A stretch of DNA of 64,000 nucleotides from Frankia casuarinae (GTDB taxonomy: Bacteria > Actinomycetota > Actinomycetes > Frankiales > Frankiaceae). Numbering within the stretch: the first letter of the stretch is position 1; each line of letters begins with the position of its first letter. The position numbers were made by a program, and so were the translations under genes. The notes below the pieces were generated by a model that saw only the letters and a program-made list of their open reading frames with translations, had not been told where the DNA came from and made no database searches. The stretch spans positions 2,666,001-2,730,000 of the forward strand of contig NC_007777.1 of assembly GCF_000013345.1 (NCBI RefSeq), written 5' to 3'. Positions 51,074 through 64,000 of the stretch are shown one piece after another.

Positions 51074-52042
51074 TCACGAGTCGCCGGGCAGGAGTTCGAC
51101 GGCGCGCAGGCGGTCGGCCTCGGTGGGCTTGGTGTAAACGCGCGTGGTGTCAGTGCGCGCGTGGCCGAGGAGCTCGGCGACCAGGACGAGGTCGGCGCCG
51201 CGGCGGAGCATGGCGGTCGCGAAGGTGTGCCGCAGGACGTGCGGGGTCAGGTCGTCGATCCCGACGGAGCGGCCGAGGTCGGCGACGACCTGGTCGACGG
51301 TGCGGGTCGACAGGCGGCGGCCGTAGCGGTTGAGGAACAGCGCCGGGTCGGCCTCGGCGTTCGGCCAGGCGGCCCGGGCGGGTTTCCAGTCGGTCAGCGC
51401 CCGGCGGGCCCGGGGGTTGGCCGGGATGGTGCGCGGCTTGCCGCCGTCGCGGCCCTTGCCGGCCCGGACGTGGACGGCTCCGGTGCGGGCGGTGACGGGC
51501 ACGTCGTCGAGGTCGAGGGCGACGAGCTCGGCGCAGCGCACGCCGGTGTTGTAGAGCAGCTCGATGATCGTGCGGTCGCGTAGCGAGGGCAGCCGTTCGG
51601 CGGCGCGCAGCACGCGGCGGGCCTCGTCGTCGGTCAGGGCGCGAGGGGCCTGCTCGGGAAGGTCGGCGCGGTCGACGACGGCGCGGCCGAGGTGGCGCCA
51701 GGTGAAGAAGTGGTCGAGCGCGGTCAGGTGCGCGTTGATGGTCGCGGGCCGCTTCTTCGCGACCGTGAGCAGGTGGGCCCGGTAGTCGCGGACGGCGAAG
51801 TCGCGGGCGTGCGCGTCGGACAGCGGGTCGGCGCCGGTGGGGTCCGCGGCGGCGCCGTCGGTGTCGAGCCAGCGCAGGAACCCGGCGACCCGGGAGGCGT
51901 AGGCGCGCCGGGAGTGCTCGGCGAGCCGGACGTGGTCGAGCTCGGCGCGGTAGGCGGCGAACAGCTCGGCGTACCGGTCGGGCGGGCGTTCGCCGCCGCG
52001 CCGGCCGCGGCCGGTGGGTGGTGCGGTGGCGCTGGTCGTCAC
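51074..52042 (-). CDS. XerC/D-like tyrosine recombinase of the transposon (TnpI-type)
   Basis: A 322-residue recombinase with an N-terminal SAM-like domain (RLAEHSRRAYASRVAGFLRW). The catalytic residues are in order: R in YNTGVRCAELVALDLDD, lysine in VRAGKGRDGGKPR, HxxR in TPHVLRHTFATAML, H in ELLGHARTDTTRVYTKP and the tyrosine in the same segment. GTG 52042 is chosen for GAGAGGA. It is probably the co-integrate resolution enzyme of the transposon, using a site near its own gene. Confidence 0.88.
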   Translation of the reverse strand: MTTSATAPPTGRGRRGGERPPDRYAELFAAYRAELDHVRLAEHSRRAYASRVAGFLRWLDTDGAAADPTGADPLSDAHARDFAVRDYRAHLLTVAKKRPATINAHLTALDHFFTWRHLGRAVVDRADLPEQAPRALTDDEARRVLRAAERLPSLRDRTIIELLYNTGVRCAELVALDLDDVPVTARTGAVHVRAGKGRDGGKPRTIPANPRARRALTDWKPARAAWPNAEADPALFLNRYGRRLSTRTVDQVVADLGRSVGIDDLTPHVLRHTFATAMLRRGADLVLVAELLGHARTDTTRVYTKPTEADRLRAVELLPGDS

Positions 52043-52071: not shown

Positions 52072-52365
52072 TCAGGCGTGCGGCTGATGGTCCGGGTCGT
52101 AGTCGGTTCGCGGTCCCACCACGATGTCGTCCTCGGTGGTGGCCGGGCCGGCGACGTGGCACCGGCAGCGTGCGATGACGCAGCCGTACCGGCCGTGGTC
52201 GTCCACGGGGTGGTCGCACCAGGGATCGACGCAGCGCTCGGCGGTCTCGAGTTCGGCGGCCCGGTCCAGGAACCGGCCGGCAGCCTCGGGCTGGCGGGTG
52301 GCCTCGGCGCGGAGCCAGGCGATGAGCTCCTCGGTGGTCGCGGGCGGAGCGACGTCGGTGGTCAT
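52072..52365 (-). CDS. Small Cys/His-containing protein in the transposon
   Basis: A 97-residue protein: an N-terminal acidic helix pair (EELIAWLRAEATRQPEAA), then a likely metal-binding patch CVDPWCDHPVDDHGRYGCVI with ARCRCHVAG (five cysteines plus histidines). I recognise no family. It starts at ATG 52365, which overlaps the divergent methyltransferase ATG (CATG). It lies 29 bases upstream of the recombinase in the same direction and may regulate either neighbour. Confidence 0.65.
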   Translation of the reverse strand: MTTDVAPPATTEELIAWLRAEATRQPEAAGRFLDRAAELETAERCVDPWCDHPVDDHGRYGCVIARCRCHVAGPATTEDDIVVGPRTDYDPDHQPHA

Positions 52366-53314
52366 GGGTTCTCCGGTCGGCCAGGCGGCGCAGGTCCTGC
52401 GGGGTCTGCCGGACGCCTCGGTGCACTGTGTGGTGACCTCGCCGCCGTACTTCGGGTTGCGTGACTACGGCGAGCCCGGCCAGATCGGCCTGGAGCCCAC
52501 GCCCGCGGCCTACGTCGCCCGGCTCGCCGAGGTGTTCACGGAGGTTCGCCGGGTGCTGCACCCGGACGGGACGTGCTGGCTGAACCTGGGCGACAGCTAC
52601 GCGGGCAAGGCCAACGGCGGCCCGTCGGTGGGCCTGACACGCCGCGCCGACCGGGCCGAGCTGATTCCGCCGCGGCGGAACACCACCGCGGCCGCGCCCT
52701 ACAAGAGCCTGCTCGGTATCCCCTGGAGGGTCGCGTTCGCGTTGCAGGACGCCGGCTGGACGGTCCGCAACGCGATCGTGTGGGCCAAGACGAACGCGAT
52801 GCCGGAGTCGGTGACCGACCGGTTCGCCTCGCGTACCGAGACGCTGTTCCTGCTGACCCGCTCGGCGCGCTACCACTTCGACCTCGACCCCGTCCGGGAG
52901 ACACCGGTCGACCCGACCGGCGGTGCTGAGTGGGCCCAGCGCAGGAAGCAGGGTGTGCCCGGCCGGCGGGGCCGCAACCCCGAGTCGTCGGTGACGGCCG
53001 CCGACCGCGACTTCGCCGCCCACCAAGCCGGCCGTAATCCGGGCGACGTCTGGCAGATCCCGGTCGCCAACTTCCCCGGCGCGCACTTCGCCGTGTTCCC
53101 GCCCGAGATCCCGCGGCGGGCGATCCTGACCGGCTGCCCGCCCGGCGGGGTCGTGCTCGACCCGTTCTCCGGGTCGGCGACCACCGGCATGGTCGCGCTG
53201 CAGCTCGGCCGCCGCTACGTCGGGATCGATCTCAACCCCGACTATCACCGCCTCGCGCTCCGTACCCGGCTGCTGGAGCGGCCGCTGCCCGGTATCGACC
53301 AGCCGGCCTCCTGA
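52364..53314 (+). CDS. Site-specific DNA methyltransferase (N4-cytosine/N6-adenine)
   Basis: This 316-residue enzyme has the beta-class order: motif IV TSPPY in HCVVTSPPYFGLRDYG near residue 25, the target-recognition region in the middle, then motif X/I at the C-terminal end in LDPFSGSATTGMVALQLG with RRYVGIDLNPDYHRLA. The ATG lies where family similarity begins and overlaps the start of the divergent small gene. No restriction endonuclease is adjacent, so it is an orphan methyltransferase carried by a transposon. Confidence 0.9.
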   Translation: MGSPVGQAAQVLRGLPDASVHCVVTSPPYFGLRDYGEPGQIGLEPTPAAYVARLAEVFTEVRRVLHPDGTCWLNLGDSYAGKANGGPSVGLTRRADRAELIPPRRNTTAAAPYKSLLGIPWRVAFALQDAGWTVRNAIVWAKTNAMPESVTDRFASRTETLFLLTRSARYHFDLDPVRETPVDPTGGAEWAQRRKQGVPGRRGRNPESSVTAADRDFAAHQAGRNPGDVWQIPVANFPGAHFAVFPPEIPRRAILTGCPPGGVVLDPFSGSATTGMVALQLGRRYVGIDLNPDYHRLALRTRLLERPLPGIDQPAS

Positions 53315-53346: not shown

Positions 53347-53664
53347 TCAGCGGTAGTAGGACATGTCGACCGTCATCGTCAGCCGCAGCTGCGGCGGTAG
53401 CTTGTCGCCGTCGTCGTCATAGCGCAGGTCCGCGAAGCCGAAGCCGAGGATCACCGCGTAGAGATGGTCGTTCATCCAGTCGCCGGCGGCGTGCAGCAGG
53501 TCGGACTCCTCGCTGCCGTAGAAGCTGACGACCTGGGTGGCGGAGCCTTCGTGGGCGATCTCGACCCGCACCGGGCCGTGGAAGGTTCGTGTGCGCCCGG
53601 TCGGGCGGCCAATCCGAGGCACCGCCGTGTCCTGCCCCGCTGGCCGGTCGCCATCCTCGGTCAT
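53347..53664 (-). CDS. Small protein coupled to TnpA
   Basis: A 105-residue protein, ATG overlapping the tnpA stop (ATGA). Basic N-terminus (RIGRPTGRTRTFHGPVRVEI), then beta-rich sequence (ATQVVSFYGSEESDLLHAAGD) and the tyrosine-rich end LTMTVDMSYYR. It has an even, folded-protein look but no known family. Translation after TnpA suggests a role in transposition or immunity, which is speculation. Confidence 0.7.
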   Translation of the reverse strand: MTEDGDRPAGQDTAVPRIGRPTGRTRTFHGPVRVEIAHEGSATQVVSFYGSEESDLLHAAGDWMNDHLYAVILGFGFADLRYDDDGDKLPPQLRLTMTVDMSYYR

Positions 53665-56411
53665 GACTCCTCCTGATCGTTCTCGCCCGGGTCACGCAGA
53701 GGGCGCAGACCCGTGCCGGTGGGCGGGGCGGCGAAGGCGTAGCGGCCGAGCATGTTGATGTGCCGGTCGGCCAGCGGGGACAGCCGGGCGACGTCGAGGT
53801 CGTGCACGTCGTGGCCTGCGGTGCGCAGTGCGGTGAGGGCGGCGTCGAGGTAGCGGGTGTTCCACAGCACGACACCGACGCGGGCGAGGTTGACCCGGTG
53901 CCGGGCAATGGCGTTCAGCGGCCCGTAGTCGCCCTCGGCGTCGCCGGGCAGGGTGGCACGCCACAGTCGCTGGTCGGACAGGTCCGCGATCCGCGGGGAG
54001 AACCGGTAGCCGAGCAGGCGGAACAGGCCGAAGACGATGTCGGAGTAGCTGGCGGTGTCGGTCGCGACCATCTCCGGCTTCGGCCCGGCGTCGAGGGTGA
54101 GCAGCGTGTCCAGGATGTAGAGCGAGTCACGGACAGTGCCGGGCACGACGACCGCGCCGATCCCTGCGACCTGGTCGTTGACCGCGTTCAGCCAGGTCAC
54201 GCCGCGTTTGAGCCCGAAGTAGCGGGGGCTGGGTCCTGCGTTGATCGTGCGGACCGGGACGACGAACCGCAGTCTGTCGACGGAGGCGACCAGCCCCCCG
54301 CCCCATGCCTGGGCGAGCCCGATCTGTGCCTGGGCGGTGATCAGAGCCGCGTTCGCCGCGGCGTGGGTGTCGGCGCGCAGGTAGTTCTGGTCGACGTGGG
54401 AGAGCCGGTCGCGGCTCAGCGCCGGCTCGCTCGGCTTGGTCACCGGGGTCAGCCCGACGTTGCATGCCTCGGCGACCAGCAGCGCTGCGAGGGAGATGTG
54501 CAGGTTCTCCATCCGGCTGCCCGACCCGCCCAGATGGGTGTAGGCGCCGAGGAACCCGGTCCAGGCGTGCACCTCCAGCAGCAGATCGGGCAGGTCGACA
54601 CGGGGCAGCATCGCCGCGGTTGTCGCCCGCAGCGCGACCAGGCTGTCCGGTTCCCCGAGCGCCTCCAGCCGGCTCACGGCCAGGCGCATCCGCCCGTCGG
54701 CCGCCGGCTCGACCCGCACCGGGCTGTCCGGTCCGGCCTCGGCGAGCCGGTCGACGGTCTGGCGCCACGCGGCGTCCAACGAGCCGGCGAGCTCACGCAG
54801 GTGGGTCTCGACCGGGGCGGCCAGGCCGAGACCGGCGAGCACCTCGCCGCGGACCCGATCCCATCCCTCGCCGGCGAGCAGCCGGGCCCGCGGGTCAGAC
54901 CATCGCTGCGAACGCACGGCGAACACGTCGCGCCGGCGCAGCGCCCGATGCAGCTGCTCCAGCACGCACAGCACGTAGCCGTCGCGGTCGACCGTGCCAG
55001 CCGGCAACGTCGGGTTGGCCAGCACCGCGCGCCGCCACACCGGCGGCACCAGATCGATGTCGACCTCGTCCGGGCGGATCCGGCGACGGCCGACCAGGTT
55101 CGGCAGTAGCCGGACCGCGTCGAGGACCGGCTGGCCGTCGCCGGTCGCTGCCAGCGGCAGCGCCTCGGCGAGCAGGAGGAGAAAAGGGCGGACCGTGCCG
55201 TAACGGCGGGCCAGCTCGGCGCGCATCACCGTCTCCAGGCCGGCGTCGCCGGGCACCAGCTCCTCGACCAGAGCGGCGGCCTCCAGCACCCGTTCCCGCG
55301 GCGCGACCTGCTCCACGACCGCCCAGGCTGCGGCGACGTCGAGCGCCTCGCCGGCCGTGCCGGCCAGCAGGCCCAGCAGCGCGGACGCCGCGCCGGCGAG
55401 GGTGACCGACGCCTTCTCCAGCTTCGGCAGGACGGCGAGGCGTTCCTGCTGCGCGGCGCGACGCGCCGGGTTGAGCAGCCGGGTGGCCATCAGCACGTCG
55501 AACAGGTCCAGGGCGTCGTCGACCGCCGCCGCTTCCAGACCGCGCACCGTCGCCAGCAGGGTCGCGGTACGCCGCGGCTCGGCGAGCTCGCGTAGCAGCG
55601 GCGCCTTGGCCGCCAGGCCGTAGCGGGCCAGCGTCGCCAGCCGGTTCGCTGGCACCCCCGACACATCCGCCGCGCCGGCGCCCACCACGATGACCTCGCC
55701 GGCCCGTGACAGCGCCCGCTCCAAGCCCGGCCCCGACGTCCGCGTCGGCCCCCGCCGCAGCCGCTCCAGCTCGCTTACCCGGGCACCCGGCGCCACCTCG
55801 AGGAGACTGCGCAGCCGTCCGGCCAACTGCGGATCGGCCTGCTCAGCCGCGACGGCGAGCTCCTGGTGCACCCGGTCGGTGGCCTCGCTGCGCACGGAGA
55901 CCACCAGACGGGCCAGAACACTCACCCCTGGCAACAGCACCCGGCTACGGCGCAGCCACGCCGTGGCCTGACCGAACAGCGCCACCGGACCCTCTGCCTG
56001 CGTCCACGCCCGGCTCGCCAGGAACGCCCGCAGCTCCGTGGCTGCCTGCGGGTCGGCGAAGTCCCGGTAGCCGTAGACCGACCGGATCTCCCGAGCATGC
56101 TCATGCTGCGTCGGCAGCCGCTCGGTGTACCGCTTCACCACCGACGAGTCCGCAACGTCCAGCTGGCCCGCGAGATAGTCCACCACCACCCACGGCACCT
56201 CCAGCGGATCGCTCAGGAACGTCCCAAGGAACCGCACCGTGCCCAGCTGAACGGCGAACCCCAGACGCGAGTGCTCGCCCCGGCGCCGGACGACGAGCTC
56301 CCGGTCGGCGTCATCCAGAAAGAAGAACCGCTCCAACTCAGCCCGCACAGGTTCACCATCGAACCGCCCGTACGCCGCAACCTGCTCATCCGTCAGGAAC
56401 TCCACCGGCAC
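53661..56411 (-). CDS. tnpA: Tn3-family transposase TnpA
   Basis: A 916-residue transposase, slightly shorter than the usual 950-1000. The N-terminal DUF4158-type region opens PVEFLTDEQVAAYGRFDGEP and includes RGEHSRLGFAVQLGTVRFLG. The DDE region contains MENLHISLAALLVAEACNVG, EMVATDTASYSDIVFGLFRL (catalytic aspartate) and LARVGVVLWNTRYLDAALTAL, then DVARLSPLADRHINMLGRYA at the end. ATG 56411 lies 80 bases inside the right end. It appears intact. Confidence 0.93.
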   Translation of the reverse strand: MPVEFLTDEQVAAYGRFDGEPVRAELERFFFLDDADRELVVRRRGEHSRLGFAVQLGTVRFLGTFLSDPLEVPWVVVDYLAGQLDVADSSVVKRYTERLPTQHEHAREIRSVYGYRDFADPQAATELRAFLASRAWTQAEGPVALFGQATAWLRRSRVLLPGVSVLARLVVSVRSEATDRVHQELAVAAEQADPQLAGRLRSLLEVAPGARVSELERLRRGPTRTSGPGLERALSRAGEVIVVGAGAADVSGVPANRLATLARYGLAAKAPLLRELAEPRRTATLLATVRGLEAAAVDDALDLFDVLMATRLLNPARRAAQQERLAVLPKLEKASVTLAGAASALLGLLAGTAGEALDVAAAWAVVEQVAPRERVLEAAALVEELVPGDAGLETVMRAELARRYGTVRPFLLLLAEALPLAATGDGQPVLDAVRLLPNLVGRRRIRPDEVDIDLVPPVWRRAVLANPTLPAGTVDRDGYVLCVLEQLHRALRRRDVFAVRSQRWSDPRARLLAGEGWDRVRGEVLAGLGLAAPVETHLRELAGSLDAAWRQTVDRLAEAGPDSPVRVEPAADGRMRLAVSRLEALGEPDSLVALRATTAAMLPRVDLPDLLLEVHAWTGFLGAYTHLGGSGSRMENLHISLAALLVAEACNVGLTPVTKPSEPALSRDRLSHVDQNYLRADTHAAANAALITAQAQIGLAQAWGGGLVASVDRLRFVVPVRTINAGPSPRYFGLKRGVTWLNAVNDQVAGIGAVVVPGTVRDSLYILDTLLTLDAGPKPEMVATDTASYSDIVFGLFRLLGYRFSPRIADLSDQRLWRATLPGDAEGDYGPLNAIARHRVNLARVGVVLWNTRYLDAALTALRTAGHDVHDLDVARLSPLADRHINMLGRYAFAAPPTGTGLRPLRDPGENDQEES

Positions 56412-56551: not shown

Positions 56552-57030
56552 ATGACAGCCGATCACGAGCGCTGCTTGACCTCCCACGGTTTGTCTCGCT
56601 CTCCGAACTGGACAGTGCGCCACATCGTCACCCCCGCGCCTGGCCCGATCCCCGCCTCGTTCCTGGAGCGCGTCACCCGCAACCTGGCCGACCGGGACCG
56701 CGCCGCCGGCGTGTTCGCCGGGCAGGATCCCCCCGGTACCTCTGCGAGCTGTACGGAATTGATCGCACTCTGTACCGGACCTACGACCTTCCCGCCGAAC
56801 CCCGCCTGACGGGCGTGCGTGGTCTGCTCGGCGCGGCCTACCCCGCCTCCTCTCAGCCGAGTGTCCGGCCCCCGACGTCGGCGCCCGTACCCCGTACGGG
56901 CGTCTCACCCGGGCCAGAGACGGCCGGGCCGCGGCGGCCGGGCCGCGGCGGTCTGGCCGGTAGACCCGCCGGCTTCACCGGGTTACATGGTGATCTATCT
57001 AGATCATCTTCATCGGTGGGGCCGCGGTGA
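56552..57030 (+). pseudogene. Frameshifted relative of the mobilisation-region two-repeat protein
   Basis: From ATG 56552 the product reads MTADHERCLTSHGLS, NWTVRHIVTPAPGPIPASFL and GVFAGQDPP. There a C6 run breaks the frame, and one base over it continues RYLCELYGIDRTLYRTYDLP, AEPRLTGVRGLLGAAYPASS, with a Pro-rich tail to a stop at 57030. The same block GQDPPRY-x2-ELYG-x-DR-x-L-x-RTY-x2-PAEPR followed by GLLGAA(Y/F)P ends the 530-residue protein at 60250-61842. It is therefore a truncated, frameshifted paralogue next to the transposon. Confidence 0.6.
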
Positions 57031-58044
57031 GTTCCCCGTCTCCGGGGGAGGCTGCGGCCGACGCCTGCCATCCTGTCCAGGGGGTGTCCTCTCCGGGGGA
57101 GGGAAAGCCCGCCGTATGATCTTCGCCGCGTCCGGCCGGGCAATACGCTCTCGAAGAGCTCCGTGTGTAGCGGTGTCGTGCACGACGCGGCCGGGAAACT
57201 CGGTCGTGTTGATGACGATGATGCGTCCGGTCTGGCCGCTTTGCTCAAGAACGGCGAGCCGGTGGCTGCTCGCCGGCGTTGTCGTTGTCGATCCATTCTG
57301 GTCGCGGAAGGCACTCGACAGCCCGGCGCGGGTGACCCAATGGCGGCCAAGAGTGTCGCGGCCGGCCTCTACGTCACGGCGTCCGCTTTCCCACCGCTGG
57401 TAGGTACGGTCGAGGAGAACTTGCTCGGATGCCTCCAGGCAGATGGCCTGTGGTGGTCCGTATCCGGCCCGACGGAACTCCGCGATACCGGCCTGCATTC
57501 CGCTTAGATCTCCGAGGGTGTTCTGCCATCCGACATTCCAGTCCTGCATCCGTGCGACGGCGGCGACTCTGTGCGCGAGATAGGTTCCTTCGGCGTTGAT
57601 CAGATCATGGAGTTCGGCGGGTACGACAGGTATTCCGTCGAGGCCGTCACGTAGCTCGTGAGGGACAGGCAGAGTCCCCTGCGTAGCCAGCTCGTGTAGA
57701 AGTATGCGCATCAGCTCGTCGCGTTCGAGCATCAGTGTCCCGGACAGCTCCATCCCCTGGGCCCCGGCAGCGGTCAGGGCTGAGGATTTGCCGGCACCAG
57801 GCGGCCCGACGATCAGGCTAAGCTGTCGGCCAGGATGGGGCAGTTGGCCGTGCTGGGCGACGTGAGCTGTCAGGTAGCGGTCGACGACCCGGTCATAGAT
57901 CGCGGCACGTTGCTCGCTGGGAACACCACCGGGCAGGGCCTGGTCTGCGGTGGCGTAGGGAGATCTGGTCGACAGGATCCCGCCGGGCGCAAGCAGAGTT
58001 TCCAGCGTGTGGGCGTAGCTCCGGTACTCGTCCGAGGAGGCCAT
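57010..58044 (-). CDS. Zeta-toxin-like kinase
   Basis: A 344-residue protein with the zeta/PezT-type P-loop SLIVGPPGAGKSSALTAAG near residue 80, DELMRILLHEL, and GWQNTLGDLSGMQAGIAEFR with the arginine of the second half, then CLEASEQVLLDRTYQRWESG. Zeta toxins phosphorylate UDP-N-acetylglucosamine. The last 40 residues are Pro/Arg-rich. It lies seven bases after an unknown 154-residue gene rather than after an epsilon antitoxin, so that protein may be the neutralising partner. The operon's first gene is a histidine phosphatase. Confidence 0.82.
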   Translation of the reverse strand: MASSDEYRSYAHTLETLLAPGGILSTRSPYATADQALPGGVPSEQRAAIYDRVVDRYLTAHVAQHGQLPHPGRQLSLIVGPPGAGKSSALTAAGAQGMELSGTLMLERDELMRILLHELATQGTLPVPHELRDGLDGIPVVPAELHDLINAEGTYLAHRVAAVARMQDWNVGWQNTLGDLSGMQAGIAEFRRAGYGPPQAICLEASEQVLLDRTYQRWESGRRDVEAGRDTLGRHWVTRAGLSSAFRDQNGSTTTTPASSHRLAVLEQSGQTGRIIVINTTEFPGRVVHDTATHGALRERIARPDAAKIIRRAFPPPERTPPGQDGRRRPQPPPETGNSPRPHR

Positions 58045-58051
58045 CTGTCTA

Positions 58052-58516
58052 TCAGGTCAGGTCGCTACGGTGGCGGCGTACTTGGGCGACGAGCGGCCGC
58101 GGCAGCAGGCCGGCATCACCAGCCGCCTCCACGACAGCGAAGCTGTCCGACCATGGCTGAGCCTCATCCCGGTGAGGGTCATGGGCTTGGTATGGCCAGA
58201 TAGCGAGGATCTCTACCAGCCGTTCACTGGGAAGGTCGCCGCACACATACAGATCGATGACATCGGCGAGTTCCCACCGTCCCTCGTGAAGATACGGGCC
58301 GGGGGCATGCAGCCGCGCCGCGTCCAGTGCACCACGCACTGTCGGATCGCTCAGGATGACCAGGGGCAGGCCCATCGCGGCATCCTCGCGAGCCGCGGCC
58401 AGTGCTACACGGCCAAGCGAACGGTCGGCGATACGCAGTCGTGCCTGGCTTGCCGTCCGTTCCTGCCAGGCATGACGAACGCGCTCAGCCGATGACGATG
58501 AAGCAGAAGGAGTCAC
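58052..58516 (-). CDS. Unknown 154-residue protein between phosphatase and zeta toxin
   Basis: GTG start overlaps the phosphatase stop (GTGA). Largely helical: SSAERVRHAWQERTASQARL, DRSLGRVALAAAREDAAMGL, then LVILSDPTVRGALDAARLHA, ELADVIDLYVCGDLPSERLV and LLPRPLVAQVRRHRSDL. No helix-turn-helix, membrane segment or metal motif. Position between an enzyme and a zeta-type toxin makes an antitoxin role possible. I recognise no family. Confidence 0.7.
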   Translation of the reverse strand: MTPSASSSSAERVRHAWQERTASQARLRIADRSLGRVALAAAREDAAMGLPLVILSDPTVRGALDAARLHAPGPYLHEGRWELADVIDLYVCGDLPSERLVEILAIWPYQAHDPHRDEAQPWSDSFAVVEAAGDAGLLPRPLVAQVRRHRSDLT

Positions 58517-59220
58517 GAGTCGCCGTCCTGAACGTCGTCGAAACCCGTCGTCGGTAAGGCGATGAGATGGGCGGTGTCGTTGTGGGAAACCAACGTCCAC
58601 CGAGCCGAGCCGATCTCGGGAGTACGGTGCACCCAGCGGGTCAAAGAAGCATGCGCCACAGTGAAGGCCACCCGCGCCGAGGACCCGGCGGGTAGACCCA
58701 GCAGCAGGGTATGCATCGCCTCGACGGTTTCCGCATGCGCGAGGATGAGAATCCGCTCGCCAGCGTGACGCGTGACGATGTTCTGCAAACAATCGGTCGC
58801 CCGGGCGAGAAACGCGTTCCAGCTCTCGGCACCGGCAGCGAACGGGCGGTCCGGCTGGTCAGCAGGACTCGAGCCGAACGCCTCCCAGATATCCGTCCAC
58901 GGCTTGCCGTCGGCGTCACCATGCGCCGGGCCGGACAGACGTGGCTCAATGTGCGGCGTCAAGCCAAGGCGTGGGGAGATCACGGCGGCGGTCTCACGGA
59001 CCCGTCGCCGCGGCCCGGCATACACCACATCGAACTGGCGGTCGTGGTGCATCCATTCCAGCCGCCGGCCCGCCTGGTCTACTTGGCCACGCCCCCGCAG
59101 CGTCAACCCGGTGCAGCCCCGGTCGCCGCCAGCGATGCCCGCGAGATTGCAGTGCGCCTCTCCGTGCCGAACCAGCACAACATCCGTGTCCACCCGCACC
59201 CCCGTTCCACTGCCATACAT
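58513..59220 (-). CDS. Histidine-phosphatase (phosphoglycerate-mutase-like) family protein
   Basis: A 235-residue enzyme with the catalytic motif DVVLVRHGEAHCN about residue 15, the paired arginine in YAGPRRRVRETAAVI, glutamate region EPRLSGPAHGDADG, and the second histidine in ILILAHAETVEAMHT. It removes phosphate from an unknown small molecule. ATG 59220 is in frame; a GTG about ten codons later (VRVDTDVV) has a better purine-rich leader. It is first in a tight operon with the 154-residue protein and the zeta toxin. Confidence 0.82.
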   Translation of the reverse strand: MYGSGTGVRVDTDVVLVRHGEAHCNLAGIAGGDRGCTGLTLRGRGQVDQAGRRLEWMHHDRQFDVVYAGPRRRVRETAAVISPRLGLTPHIEPRLSGPAHGDADGKPWTDIWEAFGSSPADQPDRPFAAGAESWNAFLARATDCLQNIVTRHAGERILILAHAETVEAMHTLLLGLPAGSSARVAFTVAHASLTRWVHRTPEIGSARWTLVSHNDTAHLIALPTTGFDDVQDGDS

Positions 59221-59460: not shown

Positions 59461-59542
59461 GGACAGAGGGCGGATTGGCGTCGGCGGTTTCGCGTCCGGT
59501 TGGGGTACACCCCAACACCACACGATCAACTAGCGCGAGAAG

Positions 59543-59611
59543 TGTCAGGTTAGAGTCCGTCGCAGCGTTTCTTGACGTATGTCTACTTGGTTCTTAGAGT
59601 CCATCCTGACA
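59543..59611 (+). promoter_or_regulatory. Promoter and res-like repeats before the resolvase gene
   Basis: TTGACG (59572-59577), 17 bases, then TAGAGT (59595-59600) form a good -35/-10 pair. Around them TGTCAGG (59543) mirrors CCTGACA (59605) and TTAGAGTCC is directly repeated (59550 and 59594). Such a layout fits resolvase subsites overlapping its own promoter. Confidence 0.55.
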
Positions 59612-59639
59612 TTTCAGGGTGCGGAAGGGGTCAGGGCGG

Positions 59640-60347
59640 ATGCGGGTCGGCTACGTCAGAGTCAGCAGTGCCGACCAGAACACGGTGAGGCAACTTGACG
59701 GGGTGGACGTCGAGCGGGTGTTCGTCGACAAGGCGTCCGGGAAGGACAGCGACCGGCCGAAGCTCGGCGAGATGATCGCGTTCGTCCGCGACGGCGACAC
59801 CGTGCTCGTGCACTCGATGGACCGCCTCGCGCGCAACCTCGACGATCTGCGCAGCACCGTGCGGATGCTGACGGGCAAGGGCGTGCGGGTCGAGTTCGTC
59901 AAGGAGGGCCTGACCTTCACCGGTGAGGACTCGCCGATGGCGACCCTGCTGCTGTCGGTCATGGGCGCGTTCGCCGAGTTCGAACGCGCCCTCATCCTCG
60001 AACGCCAGCGCGAGGGCATCGCCGCCGCCAAACAGCGCGGCGTCTACACCGGCCGCAAACCCGCCCTCACCCCCGACCAGGCGCGTGATCTGCGCGAGCG
60101 CGCCGCCGGCGGCGCGCGGAAGTCCGACCTGGCCAAGGCGTTCGGCATCAGCCGCGAGACCGTGTACACCTACCTGCGGGCCGCACGCCCGGCCGGATGT
60201 GGCAGCGGATCTCCACCATCTGACTCACGTGACCGCGCCGACGGCGCTGTCACCTGCCGGTATGGGGCGGCCTGCCCGGGATCGTCGGCGACGCCGGGAT
60301 CGTCGATGCAGCCGAGTCGGACGGTGACGGGGGCGACGCCGGCGTGA
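59640..60347 (+). CDS. Serine recombinase (resolvase/invertase)
   Basis: This 235-residue protein opens RVGYVRVSSADQNTVRQLDG with the catalytic serine at position 9-10. HSMDRLARNLDDLRSTV (R-x2-R) is followed by FTGEDSPMATLLLSVMGAFA and EFERALILERQREGIA, then a C-terminal helix-turn-helix (KAFGISRETVYTYLRAA). Core length (about 185) is normal for Tn3-type resolvases. About 50 extra residues overlap the convergent gene and may be untranslated drift. It belongs to the mobilisation island rather than the TnpA transposon. Confidence 0.88.
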   Translation: MRVGYVRVSSADQNTVRQLDGVDVERVFVDKASGKDSDRPKLGEMIAFVRDGDTVLVHSMDRLARNLDDLRSTVRMLTGKGVRVEFVKEGLTFTGEDSPMATLLLSVMGAFAEFERALILERQREGIAAAKQRGVYTGRKPALTPDQARDLRERAAGGARKSDLAKAFGISRETVYTYLRAARPAGCGSGSPPSDSRDRADGAVTCRYGAACPGSSATPGSSMQPSRTVTGATPA

Positions 60348-61842
60348 CGCCCGCCCGGGTGGGAGGGAAAGCAGCGCCGAGCAGGCCGGCCACGGCGGGC
60401 GGACGGGCGGGGGCCGGGCGGGGCTCTGCGGGATGCTCGTAGGTACGCCGTAGGGCGCGGTCCGGCCCGTACAGCTCGCCGCGGTAGCGTGGTGGATCCT
60501 GTCCCTCGGCCGGCACTGTCCCCGCCGCGGTCGCGTTGACGTCGCCGCGCAGATCCCGGCTGTCGACGGCGACGATCTGGCGGTCCGGGCTGTACATCTC
60601 GCAGCGGACCAGAAGTGCCGCATCGTCCCCGACCTGCCCGCGCAGGCGGGCGATCTCGTGTGCCACGACGCTTTCGGCCACACGGTGCGGGTCGGCGTCA
60701 GCCCGGGGCGTTCCGACGCCGTACAGCACCCAGCTCTGTCCACCGTCGGCGGAGACGAGCAGCTGCCCACGTGGCCCGGCGGTCGGACCTGCCGCCGGCG
60801 CTGGGGCGTCGAACTCCCACCGTCCGCGCCGCAACTGCAGCCAGTCGACCGGCGGCGCCGGTTGCCCGGTGTGCAGACTGACCCAGTCGCGCAGCATCTG
60901 CCGGTTCTCCGTCGACGCCCTGCCGGGGTCGATGCGCACCCGGGCTATCTCCACGTCGTTCTCGGTCAGGACCAGGGGAGCGGTCGTCGCGCTGCGGCTC
61001 AGGGCGTAGCGCACGGGTTCCGCCGGCCCGGCCAGCGCCGGCGCGGCCCCCTGCGTACCGGTAGCGGCATGCTCGGGATCGTCGGGCAGGTAGGGCAGGT
61101 CTTCGACGTCGAGCCCTGCTGCTGCGGCCGGTACGCCGGCCACCGCCAGCGGTGCGTGGTCGTGGACCGCGACGACGAGAAGACCGCTGGCGTCGCGGTC
61201 AAAGATTTCGACGCGGTAGTGCGCCCGATCATGCAGATCCGTGCCATCGCGGCGGTCCGCCTCGACGGCCTTCTCAGCCTCATGCATGGCGAAGTCGGCC
61301 GCATCGCCCTCGCGCAAGACGATGCGTAGGCCACGCAGTGTCCAGATCTGCCTGTCGGGCGAGGTGGACACCAGCACCGTCCAGGCCGCCGCGGGAAACG
61401 GGGGAGCGGTTTGAATGCGGCGCAGACCAGCGTGGACAGGTGCCCAGTCGGATAGTGGTGTCCTGACGTCGGTGTGCAGAGTGATCCACTTGTCGAGGAG
61501 GCCTTCCTCGGCTGATGCGGCCACATCCAGTCGGACTGCGGCAGCCTGCTTGCCGTCGATGGCCAGAGTGGCGTCGAGAATATTGCCGACTCGGGTGGTA
61601 GCGACATCGACGGTGATTCGTTGGCCGACGCCGGCGGTCGCCAGGGAGGCGGTCAGCACACGTTGTTCGGTCAGGGCGGCGGCGAGGGCGGATACATGTC
61701 GTCGAACGACATCTGCCCCAGCAGGGCCGAGATCGGCACCGTCCGTCGCCGTCGTGCCACGATAGCCGCCTCCCTGGACCGCTTCCGAACCCGTCGTCTG
61801 CCGTGCACGTTTTGCGTTGTCCGTGACGCTAACGGGTGACAT
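60250..61842 (-). CDS. Unknown protein with two tandem homologous domains
   Basis: A 530-residue protein with an internal duplication. Repeat A (about residues 65-225) contains LLDKWITLHTDVRTPLSDWA, PAAAWTVLVSTSPDRQIWTL and HYRVEIFDRDASGLLVVAVH. Repeat B (about 270-430) contains MLRDWVSLHTGQPAPPVDWL, GQLLVSADGGQSWVLYGV and LVRCEMYSPDRQIVAVDSRD. A conserved end block (PPRYRGELYGPDRALRRTYE) follows, then a Pro-rich tail. Both repeats pair a W-(I/V)-(T/S)-LHT strand with an S-x-D-x-Q-x-W strand. There are no signal, helix or catalytic motifs I know. It lies in the mobilisation module, upstream neighbour of a small helical protein. The start is uncertain (61842 or 61860). Confidence 0.75.
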   Translation of the reverse strand: MSPVSVTDNAKRARQTTGSEAVQGGGYRGTTATDGADLGPAGADVVRRHVSALAAALTEQRVLTASLATAGVGQRITVDVATTRVGNILDATLAIDGKQAAAVRLDVAASAEEGLLDKWITLHTDVRTPLSDWAPVHAGLRRIQTAPPFPAAAWTVLVSTSPDRQIWTLRGLRIVLREGDAADFAMHEAEKAVEADRRDGTDLHDRAHYRVEIFDRDASGLLVVAVHDHAPLAVAGVPAAAAGLDVEDLPYLPDDPEHAATGTQGAAPALAGPAEPVRYALSRSATTAPLVLTENDVEIARVRIDPGRASTENRQMLRDWVSLHTGQPAPPVDWLQLRRGRWEFDAPAPAAGPTAGPRGQLLVSADGGQSWVLYGVGTPRADADPHRVAESVVAHEIARLRGQVGDDAALLVRCEMYSPDRQIVAVDSRDLRGDVNATAAGTVPAEGQDPPRYRGELYGPDRALRRTYEHPAEPRPAPARPPAVAGLLGAAFPPTRAGVTPASPPSPSDSAASTIPASPTIPGRPPHTGR

Positions 61843-61922
61843 GCTCACATGGCGGAGCATTATGGGGGAAACAGCAGGTCCGAGGGGAGATCATGCACTT
61901 CTCTGGCTGCGTGACGTCACGA

Positions 61923-62530: not shown

Positions 62531-62947
62531 GTGACCGGCACGAGTGGGGACGGCAGCGGCCTGTCTGCGCGGCCGCGCCGCTACCGGCCCCCGGGACAGG
62601 GCCGGGCGGTGTACCGGATACGGCTCGCGGACGACGAACTCGCCGAGTTGCGCGAGGCAGCCGGACGCGTCCAGATGAGCCTCAGCGGCTACATCGCCGA
62701 GGCAGCCCTCACCGTGGCACGCAACACGCGACCGCCGACCCAGACGCCGTGGCGGGACGCCCTGGTCCATCTGGCCGAGGCATCCGCTCAGCTACGCCGC
62801 GTGGGAGGAAACCTCAACCAGCTCGTCGCCCGCTTCCACACCGTCGGTGAGCCTCCCGCCCGGTTGGAGGAAGTGCTGCGGATCGTGCTCGCCCACGCGG
62901 AACGGGTGGAGCGGGCCGCAGACCGGACCGCCGCGAAACTTCCATGA
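62531..62947 (+). CDS. mobC: Plasmid mobilisation protein MobC
   Basis: A 138-residue relaxosome accessory protein: basic N-terminus, then a ribbon-helix-helix part (VYRIRLADDELAELREAAGR, MSLSGYIAEAALTVA). The MobC C-terminal signature follows, EASAQLRRVGGNLNQLVARF (RRxGxNLNQ). MobC helps the relaxase open the origin of transfer. The start is GTG. Its TGA overlaps the relaxase ATG (ATGA). The transfer origin is likely in the divergent spacer 62358-62530. Confidence 0.88.
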   Translation: MTGTSGDGSGLSARPRRYRPPGQGRAVYRIRLADDELAELREAAGRVQMSLSGYIAEAALTVARNTRPPTQTPWRDALVHLAEASAQLRRVGGNLNQLVARFHTVGEPPARLEEVLRIVLAHAERVERAADRTAAKLP

Positions 62948-64000
62948 TCGGGAAGGTGGTGCGGGGGAAGGAGGTCCACGGCCTGCTCTACTACCTGTTC
63001 CGCGAGTCGGAGGAGCACGTGGACCCACATCTGGTCGGCGCCTTCGACGACCACGAACTCCTCGAACCACCACGCCTGCCTGACGGAAGCCGCGACATAG
63101 GCCCGTTGGGCCGGTGGATGAACCAGTTCATCAAACTCACCCCACCGCAGATCCGTCCGAAGGCGATCGTGTGGCATCTGTCGATCTCCGCCGCACCCGA
63201 GGACCGGACGCTCACCGACGCCGAGTGGCGGCAGGTGTGCGCGGACATGGTCGTGCGCACGGGTCTGGCCCCGGCCGACGATCCACACGGCTGCCGGTGG
63301 GCTGCGGTGCGCCACGCTGACAACCACGTCCACCTCGTCGTCGTACTGGCCCGTGGCGACGGGCGACGGGCTCATCCGGACTCCGACTACCACCGGGTAG
63401 GGGAGGTGTGCCGGGACGCAGAGATCCGCCACGGCCTCCGCCGCACCCGGGCACGTAACCGCACCGCCGAGCCGCGGCCGACCCGTGCCGAGCAGGAGAA
63501 GGCCGCCCGGCATGGACAGGAGGAGCCGGTGCGGGTCCGGCTGGCCCGCACGGTGCGCGCGGCCGCGGTGAGCGCGCATGACCGGGACAGTTTCGCCGCC
63601 GCGCTCGAACGGGACGGGCTGCTGGTCCGCTGGCGGCACAGCGACCGGAACCCCGGCGAGATCACCGGCTACGCGGTGGCGTGGCCCGGTGATCTGACCG
63701 GCGACGGGCAGCCAGTCTGGTACGGCGGGTCGAGGCTCGGCGCTGACCTGTCCCTGCCGAAACTCGCCCGCCGCTGGACCCCACCCGCGGACGGCGACGT
63801 TCCGGAGGGGCAGCGGATCGTCGATCCGGCCGCCCGCCGGCAGACGGTCGCCGACGCGGCCCGCGCCGCCCGCGTCGCTGCCGGCCATATCCACACCGCC
63901 GCCACCGATCCGGCCGCCGCGGGGACGGGGGAACCGGCCGCGCATGCCGCCGGCGACCTCGCCGGCGCCGCCGCCCACCTGTTCGGCGGAGGCGGGCCGG
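62944..64000 (+). CDS. Relaxase, MobA/VirD2-like (runs off right edge)
   Basis: The first 352 residues of a conjugative relaxase. The N-terminal nuclease region begins MIGKVVRGKEVHGLLYYLFR. The histidine triad is in WAAVRHADNHVHLVVVLARG (H-x-H-x-H type), preceded by VWHLSISAAPEDRTLTDAEW. The catalytic tyrosine should be in the first 30 residues (LLYYLF). After residue about 180 the chain is basic and alanine-rich, as in relaxase tails. It nicks and carries the DNA strand during mobilisation. It is coupled to mobC by ATGA overlap. Confidence 0.88.
   Translation, partial: MIGKVVRGKEVHGLLYYLFRESEEHVDPHLVGAFDDHELLEPPRLPDGSRDIGPLGRWMNQFIKLTPPQIRPKAIVWHLSISAAPEDRTLTDAEWRQVCADMVVRTGLAPADDPHGCRWAAVRHADNHVHLVVVLARGDGRRAHPDSDYHRVGEVCRDAEIRHGLRRTRARNRTAEPRPTRAEQEKAARHGQEEPVRVRLARTVRAAAVSAHDRDSFAAALERDGLLVRWRHSDRNPGEITGYAVAWPGDLTGDGQPVWYGGSRLGADLSLPKLARRWTPPADGDVPEGQRIVDPAARRQTVADAARAARVAAGHIHTAATDPAAAGTGEPAAHAAGDLAGAAAHLFGGGGP

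Follow-up and report, generated by a model that had tools for sequence, protein, structure and literature searches.

Four residues of the zeta toxins (Asp67, Glu116, Arg158, and Arg171) are all required for toxicity, and the E116A and R171A variants lose it (PMC6356619). The zeta-like toxin Rv0366c, which is listed with a histidine at the Arg171 place and does not have the motif that binds UDP-N-acetylglucosamine (UDP-GlcNAc; UNAG in the name of the motif), still stops growth, and the arrest is relieved by Rv0367c (PMC6362051). Zeta-type kinases are widely annotated in actinobacteria, and their partners in the papers found are epsilon, PezA, or ribbon-helix-helix proteins. Here, we analyzed a 64,000-nucleotide stretch of the Frankia casuarinae genome (NC_007777.1, positions 2,666,001 to 2,730,000; the window), in which an earlier sequence-only reading had proposed three packed genes, encoding a histidine phosphatase, a 154-amino-acid protein, and a zeta-type kinase, as a candidate toxin-antitoxin arrangement. 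We find that the last two genes probably form a working type II toxin-antitoxin pair that belongs to a zeta branch of actinobacteria (probability of about 0.62) and that the unit to take is the pair, not the trio. The grounds are the computed gene layout, the zeta-like fold, the P-loop and the Asp67 and Arg158 places of the kinase, the membership of the 154-amino-acid protein in an antitoxin family, and a conserved pairing from which the phosphatase is missing. The three genes are as follows.

58513..59193, minus strand: histidine phosphatase, branch 1, 226 amino acids from the GTG at 59193 (Pfam); outside the conserved pair
58052..58516, minus strand: predicted antitoxin, 154 amino acids (family profile match)
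57010..58044, minus strand: zeta-like P-loop kinase, 344 amino acids, the predicted toxin (profile of relatives and fold of an AlphaFold2 model)

The GTG of the 154-amino-acid open reading frame (ORF) lies over the TGA of the phosphatase gene in a GTGA overlap (58513-58516), and a 7-base spacer (58045-58051) separates this ORF from the kinase gene; the coordinates bear out the packing described in the sequence-only reading. An alternative phosphatase start is the ATG at 59220, which that reading took as its limit, and the mechanical ORF runs from 59256. The gene identities also stood. The first gene encodes a branch-1 histidine phosphatase (Pfam His_Phos_1, E value of 1.1e-30), the last is supported as a zeta-type P-loop kinase by the profile of its relatives and by fold matches to zeta and PezT, and the gene before the kinase shows no detected similarity to epsilon in the sequence or fold matches listed.

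Against Pfam, the kinase scores above the cutoff for AAA_33 (E value of 8.4e-7) and under it for Zeta_toxin (E value of 0.0053; 16.7 bits against 22.3, a library threshold and not a biochemical trait). Five of six relative kinases pass the Zeta_toxin cutoff, the one that fails being truncated, and all 52 kinases of our alignment (52/52) match that model at an E value of <0.01. A first scan of genome contigs with the kinase sequence alone found no relatives. The genome search for kinase relatives hit 28 places, spread over 26 of 393 genomes, with an E value of ≤1e-3, one of them the window itself; 7 of the 28 (L006-L010, L013, and L031) were used as relatives, L012 and L014-L018 were rejected with frames that resemble ABC-type ATPases, and the remainder (L011, L019-L030, and L032) were not inspected. 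A profile of the seven relatives matches the kinase at an E value of 2.5e-22 over 237 columns, and a Streptomyces plasmid relative with 24.6% identity is annotated as a "zeta toxin family protein." When the 52-kinase profile was compared with the PDB, the top sequence matches were streptococcal zeta (1gvn, 2.7e-7) and PezT (9.9e-6). The AlphaFold2 model of the kinase has a mean predicted local distance difference test (pLDDT) score of 84.8, and its best solved match is zeta 3q8x (Z score of 18.2, root mean square deviation of 2.9 over 224 residues), followed by zeta 1gvn (18.0), PezT (17.2), AvrRxo1 (15), and other kinases (12.6 or less). By profile and modeled fold, the kinase is a divergent member of the zeta superfamily. 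A phage origin was considered and rejected, with no match in phages or viral contigs. The active-site positions are the following.

57784..57807, minus strand: P-loop GPPGAGKS, residues 80-87, fitting GxxGxGK[ST], with G80, P82, G83, G85, and K86 invariant
57718..57720, minus strand: Asp109, aligned with the substrate-deprotonating Asp67 of zeta (1gvn alignment), invariant in 52/52 kinases
57523..57525, minus strand: Gln174, in the position of zeta Glu116 (1gvn alignment), where relatives have Glu or Asp
57394..57396, minus strand: Arg217, aligned with zeta Arg158 (1gvn alignment)
57340..57348, minus strand: Gly-Arg-His, residues 233-235, against Gly-Gly-Arg in all 51 relatives; probable place of zeta Arg171

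The alignment did not extend to the last of these positions, and we infer the match of the GGR arginine to zeta Arg171. The kinase has NTLG in place of the UNAG-binding GTxR motif, from which most relatives differ too. Because this motif is not kept, UDP-GlcNAc phosphorylation, which the earlier reading had cited as established for zeta toxins, cannot be carried over to this kinase.

The 154-amino-acid protein has no match in Pfam, NCBIfam, PADLOC, or PHROGs. It does align with the products of the genes that immediately precede those of the relative kinases, and two profiles built without it recognize it: an eight-member profile matches at 34% identity over 88 columns (hhalign, P value of 2.4e-5), and a 50-member profile that spans the whole protein scores it at an E value of 5.6e-11. 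Because the best of 1,000 shuffles reached only 0.073 with the latter, membership in the antitoxin family is, as judged by these profiles, beyond chance. When used alone to query 2832 ORFs, the protein gave eight matches at an E value of <1, namely, two Frankiaceae relatives and six antitoxin genes beside kinases, among which both Frankiaceae relatives and one of the six (L039) had been brought in by the protein itself. Single-sequence tblastn with it found no plasmid relatives. The usual architecture of the family is a helix-turn-helix followed by a C-terminal domain, the former being present in 44 of 50 relatives (judged by eye) and absent as a whole element in six Streptomyces relatives, and the shortest relatives retain nothing but the C-terminal domain. 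In the window, the two parts lie as follows.

58322..58378, minus strand: helix-turn-helix, eroded, with its second helix gone and SDPTVRGAL left as a remnant (family alignment and model)
58070..58270, minus strand: C-terminal antitoxin domain, residues 83-149 (family alignment and profile)

The model of the protein (pLDDT of 87.5) has one helix from 5 to 47 and then helices at 53-56 and 58-69, with no normal helix-turn-helix. Its best match to a solved fold has a Z score of 3.5 over 71 residues, and no structural relative is claimed. The C-terminal domain is named by no library model among the matches listed, and no epsilon or PezA chain stands among the PDB matches listed for the antitoxin profiles or for the model, an absence that is not proof. 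The resemblance of one tandem-domain relative to VbhA and SHOCT was weak (E values of 0.046 and 0.078) and was set aside.

We surveyed the pairing in a species-genome collection searched with the kinase alignment only. The 61 loci obtained came almost entirely from actinobacteria (Streptomyces, Rhodococcus, Mycobacterium/Mycolicibacterium, Arthrobacter, Curtobacterium, Nocardioides, and others), with one from a Bdellovibrio metagenome-assembled genome. An antitoxin-family gene, detected with a profile built without the 154-amino-acid protein, was present in 58 of the 61; three loci (L082, L091, and L104) re-find members used to build that profile, and the count without them is 55/58. Under a strict distance window, the antitoxin gene lies just upstream of 59 of 66 kinase frames, and in three of the seven exceptions (L090, L091, and L106), it is in the locus but outside the distance window owing to long open frames. 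The antitoxin stop and the kinase start overlap by exactly four bases in 21/58 pairs (starts were chosen mechanically). An earlier set agrees, with the antitoxin gene beside 16/16 kinases in 15 loci and a phosphatase in 0/15. With a profile built from the phosphatase of the window and six sister-genus relatives, no match was found within 6 kb in any of the 61 kinase loci (0/61). When 10404 ORFs from 78 loci were scanned more loosely for the RHG motif, 14 frames came up, none of which was taken for a phosphatase on inspection by eye. Before alignment, eight of the 58 antitoxins (L079, L083 [wrong frame], L085, L090, L093, L114, L115, and L122) and 10 of the 61 kinases (L085, L090, L093, L094, L115, L117, L118, L119, L132, and L133) were dropped. 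Relatives, annotated as a "zeta toxin family protein," are also carried by plasmids of Streptomyces, Rhodococcus, and Arthrobacter. Two tandem antitoxin-kinase pairs were seen at each of the Streptomyces loci L038, L096, and L097.

Since members of its family immediately precede zeta-like kinases in 58/61 loci and 16/16 earlier cases, the 154-amino-acid protein is very probably the neutralizer of the kinase, as judged by this comparison, which supports well one of the two proposals of the sequence-only reading. The other proposal, the phosphatase as an enzymatic antitoxin, and the idea of a trio conserved as a block in actinobacteria found no support in the 0/61 and 0/15 counts. That reading had also named, as the result that would tell against it, a kinase occurring mostly without both partners; the kinases surveyed proved to occur without the phosphatase and, in most loci, with a relative of the 154-amino-acid partner.

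The phosphatase has its nearest PDB relatives among alpha-ribazole/phosphoserine phosphatases, and matches at an E value of ≤1e-15 were found in 10 of 58 related genomes, its own included. Over the stretches read, relatives with 50 to 60% identity in sister genera are accompanied by neither a kinase nor an antitoxin; their company includes, for example, biotin-carboxylase-like or phosphotransferase-like frames (names read from translations). In another genome of the genus, phosphatase and antitoxin remnants with 92 to 94% DNA identity are joined by a deletion, and neither gene is whole; therefore, the two were neighbors there before. That genome has two broken phosphatase copies at contig starts (L040 and L049), one of which is the copy deletion-joined to the antitoxin fragment. 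No kinase match was found in it. Because its relatives stand alone and the remnant-bearing genome holds neither a whole gene nor a kinase match, the phosphatase is best read as a local neighbor of the pair, perhaps a source of its promoter.

Several observations weigh against a working pair. Of 39 conserved columns, those in which ≥80% of the other 51 kinases agree, the kinase departs at 16, the next worst relative departing at 8. Six departures fall at columns invariant in the 51 others (T78I, A79V, D107E, K112M, G234R, and R235H, relatives' residue first), where the invariance of T78 and A79 is partly built in by the pattern used to find the relatives. Glu116 and (by the placement above) Arg171, both needed for zeta toxicity, are represented by Q174 and H235. 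About six residues of the second helix have been lost from the helix-turn-helix, with the C-terminal domain kept, and 3 of the 61 kinase loci (L118, L119, and L133) have no antitoxin-profile match. It is thus possible, though in our judgment unlikely, that the pair is decayed or retired, with kinase toxicity and antitoxin DNA binding lost and the genes drifting or serving another role. The changed kinase columns and the broken helix-turn-helix would fit such decay, as would the remnants in the other genome of the genus, a remnant-looking antitoxin frame without a kinase in another genus, and the in-frame loss from the neighboring transposase described below. However, none of the three frames is interrupted, their coupling is tight, the kinase retains K86, D109, R217, and R222, and its model is confident. 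The departures also do not prove the kinase inactive because Rv0366c, with a histidine at the Arg171 place, still arrests growth (PMC6362051). This copy of the pair may be retuned or decaying, and we regard it as a worn or retuned example of its family.

If the phosphatase undid the reaction of the kinase, the three genes would form one system with an enzymatic antitoxin. Tight GTGA coupling and the phosphatase-antitoxin neighborhood in a second genome of the genus, there as a remnant, are in keeping with this; the absence of the phosphatase from every surveyed kinase locus and its solitary relatives make it very improbable, and no open-licence PMC paper was found that joins a zeta toxin, an antitoxin, and a histidine phosphatase. 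We give equally little credence to a bolder form, in which a zeta-type toxin retuned to a new substrate (Gln for Glu116 and GRH for GGR) works with an undescribed antitoxin family and the coupled phosphatase has been recruited as a further antidote, clearing the product of the toxin. Metabolic roles are common among histidine phosphatases and AAA_33 kinases, and the best PDB relatives of this phosphatase would suit a salvage operon of kinase, phosphatase, and small helper protein with no toxin at all, but the pairing of the kinase with the antitoxin family is seen in plasmids as well as in chromosomes and its fold ranking is zeta specific, so that we consider a salvage operon hardly credible.

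The surroundings of the trio are those of mobile DNA.

about 51074-52000, minus strand: tyrosine recombinase (Pfam), beside the Tn3 remnant
52124-53314, plus strand: N6/N4 DNA methylase (Pfam), beside the Tn3 remnant
53661..56411, minus strand: Tn3-family transposase, 916 amino acids, internally deleted (library matches and homologue comparison)
59539..59615, no strand assigned: imperfect inverted repeat with 19-nucleotide arms immediately ahead of the resolvase gene, possible res site (repeat inspection)
59619..60347, plus strand: serine resolvase (Pfam Resolvase, E value of 5.8e-36)
62531-64000, plus strand: NikA-like mobilization protein, followed by a MobA/VirD2-type relaxase that extends past the end of the window (Pfam)

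The trio sits between the transposase (tnpA) and resolvase (tnpR) genes, as Tn3 passenger cargo does. The transposase, the only match in this genome, lacks about 110 residues in frame near its C terminus, between two parts that align well with a 1046-amino-acid Streptomyces homologue. No convincing 38-bp pair of Tn3 terminal inverted repeats was found, and the Tn3 element may be broken. Because a relaxase, a primase, a TraD/TraG-type coupling protein, and an AbiEii protein lie at or beyond the window edge (L139) and a tyrosine recombinase is present, the region is probably an integrated mobilizable element. The GC content at third codon positions is 0.65 to 0.78 in the trio and 0.88 to 0.96 in the transposase, resolvase, recombinase, and methylase, which at most suggests a separate origin of the trio; two other measured genes of the window have values of 0.77 and 0.83 and one hypothetical frame has a value of 0.78, so that the contrast is with the mobile genes. 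A 536-amino-acid open frame without a Pfam match (60250-61860, minus strand) overlaps the end of the resolvase gene.

In a working pair, the 154-amino-acid protein would bind the kinase and keep it off, most simply via the C-terminal domain because the shortest relatives keep no other part. Upon loss of the antitoxin, the free kinase would phosphorylate a small molecule, presumably other than UDP-GlcNAc, with ATP, and growth would halt; the pair could in this way help to keep the mobile element in the cell. The phosphatase gene, which leads the operon here, may supply the promoter, and this would explain how the antitoxin could lose its DNA-binding helix-turn-helix. Natural variants, from the short Streptomyces antitoxins without a helix-turn-helix to the eroded one here, could serve to separate neutralization from autoregulation, and the partner found in 58/61 kinase loci, with its helix-turn-helix and C-terminal domain, is a defined, testable antitoxin family.

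Among known systems, epsilon/zeta of pSM19035 and PezAT share with this pair the kinase fold (Z scores of 18.2 and 17.2), the P-loop, and the Asp67 and Arg158 places, and PezA likewise joins a helix-turn-helix to an antitoxin domain (PMC6362051). The locus differs from both in that no epsilon or PezA chain is among the PDB matches listed for its antitoxin and in that its kinase has Gln at the Glu116 place, GRH for GGR, and no GTxR. AvrRxo1-ORF1:ORF2, compared by fold alone, is alike in its kinase (Z score of 15) and ranks under zeta and PezT. Pairs of a "zeta toxin family protein" and an upstream hypothetical gene on NZ_CP108162, pAL1, and pDND3A have the same two genes in the same order and no phosphatase; the Rhodococcus and Arthrobacter antitoxins keep the helix-turn-helix, whereas the Streptomyces ones are short and without it. 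No description of a pair with such a helix-turn-helix and C-terminal-domain antitoxin was found in open-licence PMC papers, and the antitoxin family thus seems undescribed, the kinase being already annotated as a zeta toxin family protein. Of the actinobacterial cases described in the papers found, the nearest is Rv0366c-Rv0367c, a noncanonical PezAT (PMC6362051; TASmania, PMC6504116). It too has an actinobacterial zeta-like toxin without the UNAG motif, a nonepsilon antitoxin upstream, and a histidine at the Arg171 place, and it is set apart by the description of its antitoxin, a 129-amino-acid ribbon-helix-helix or ParD-like protein (PMC6362051, PMC6504116), as opposed to the helix-turn-helix and different C-terminal domain of the family described here.

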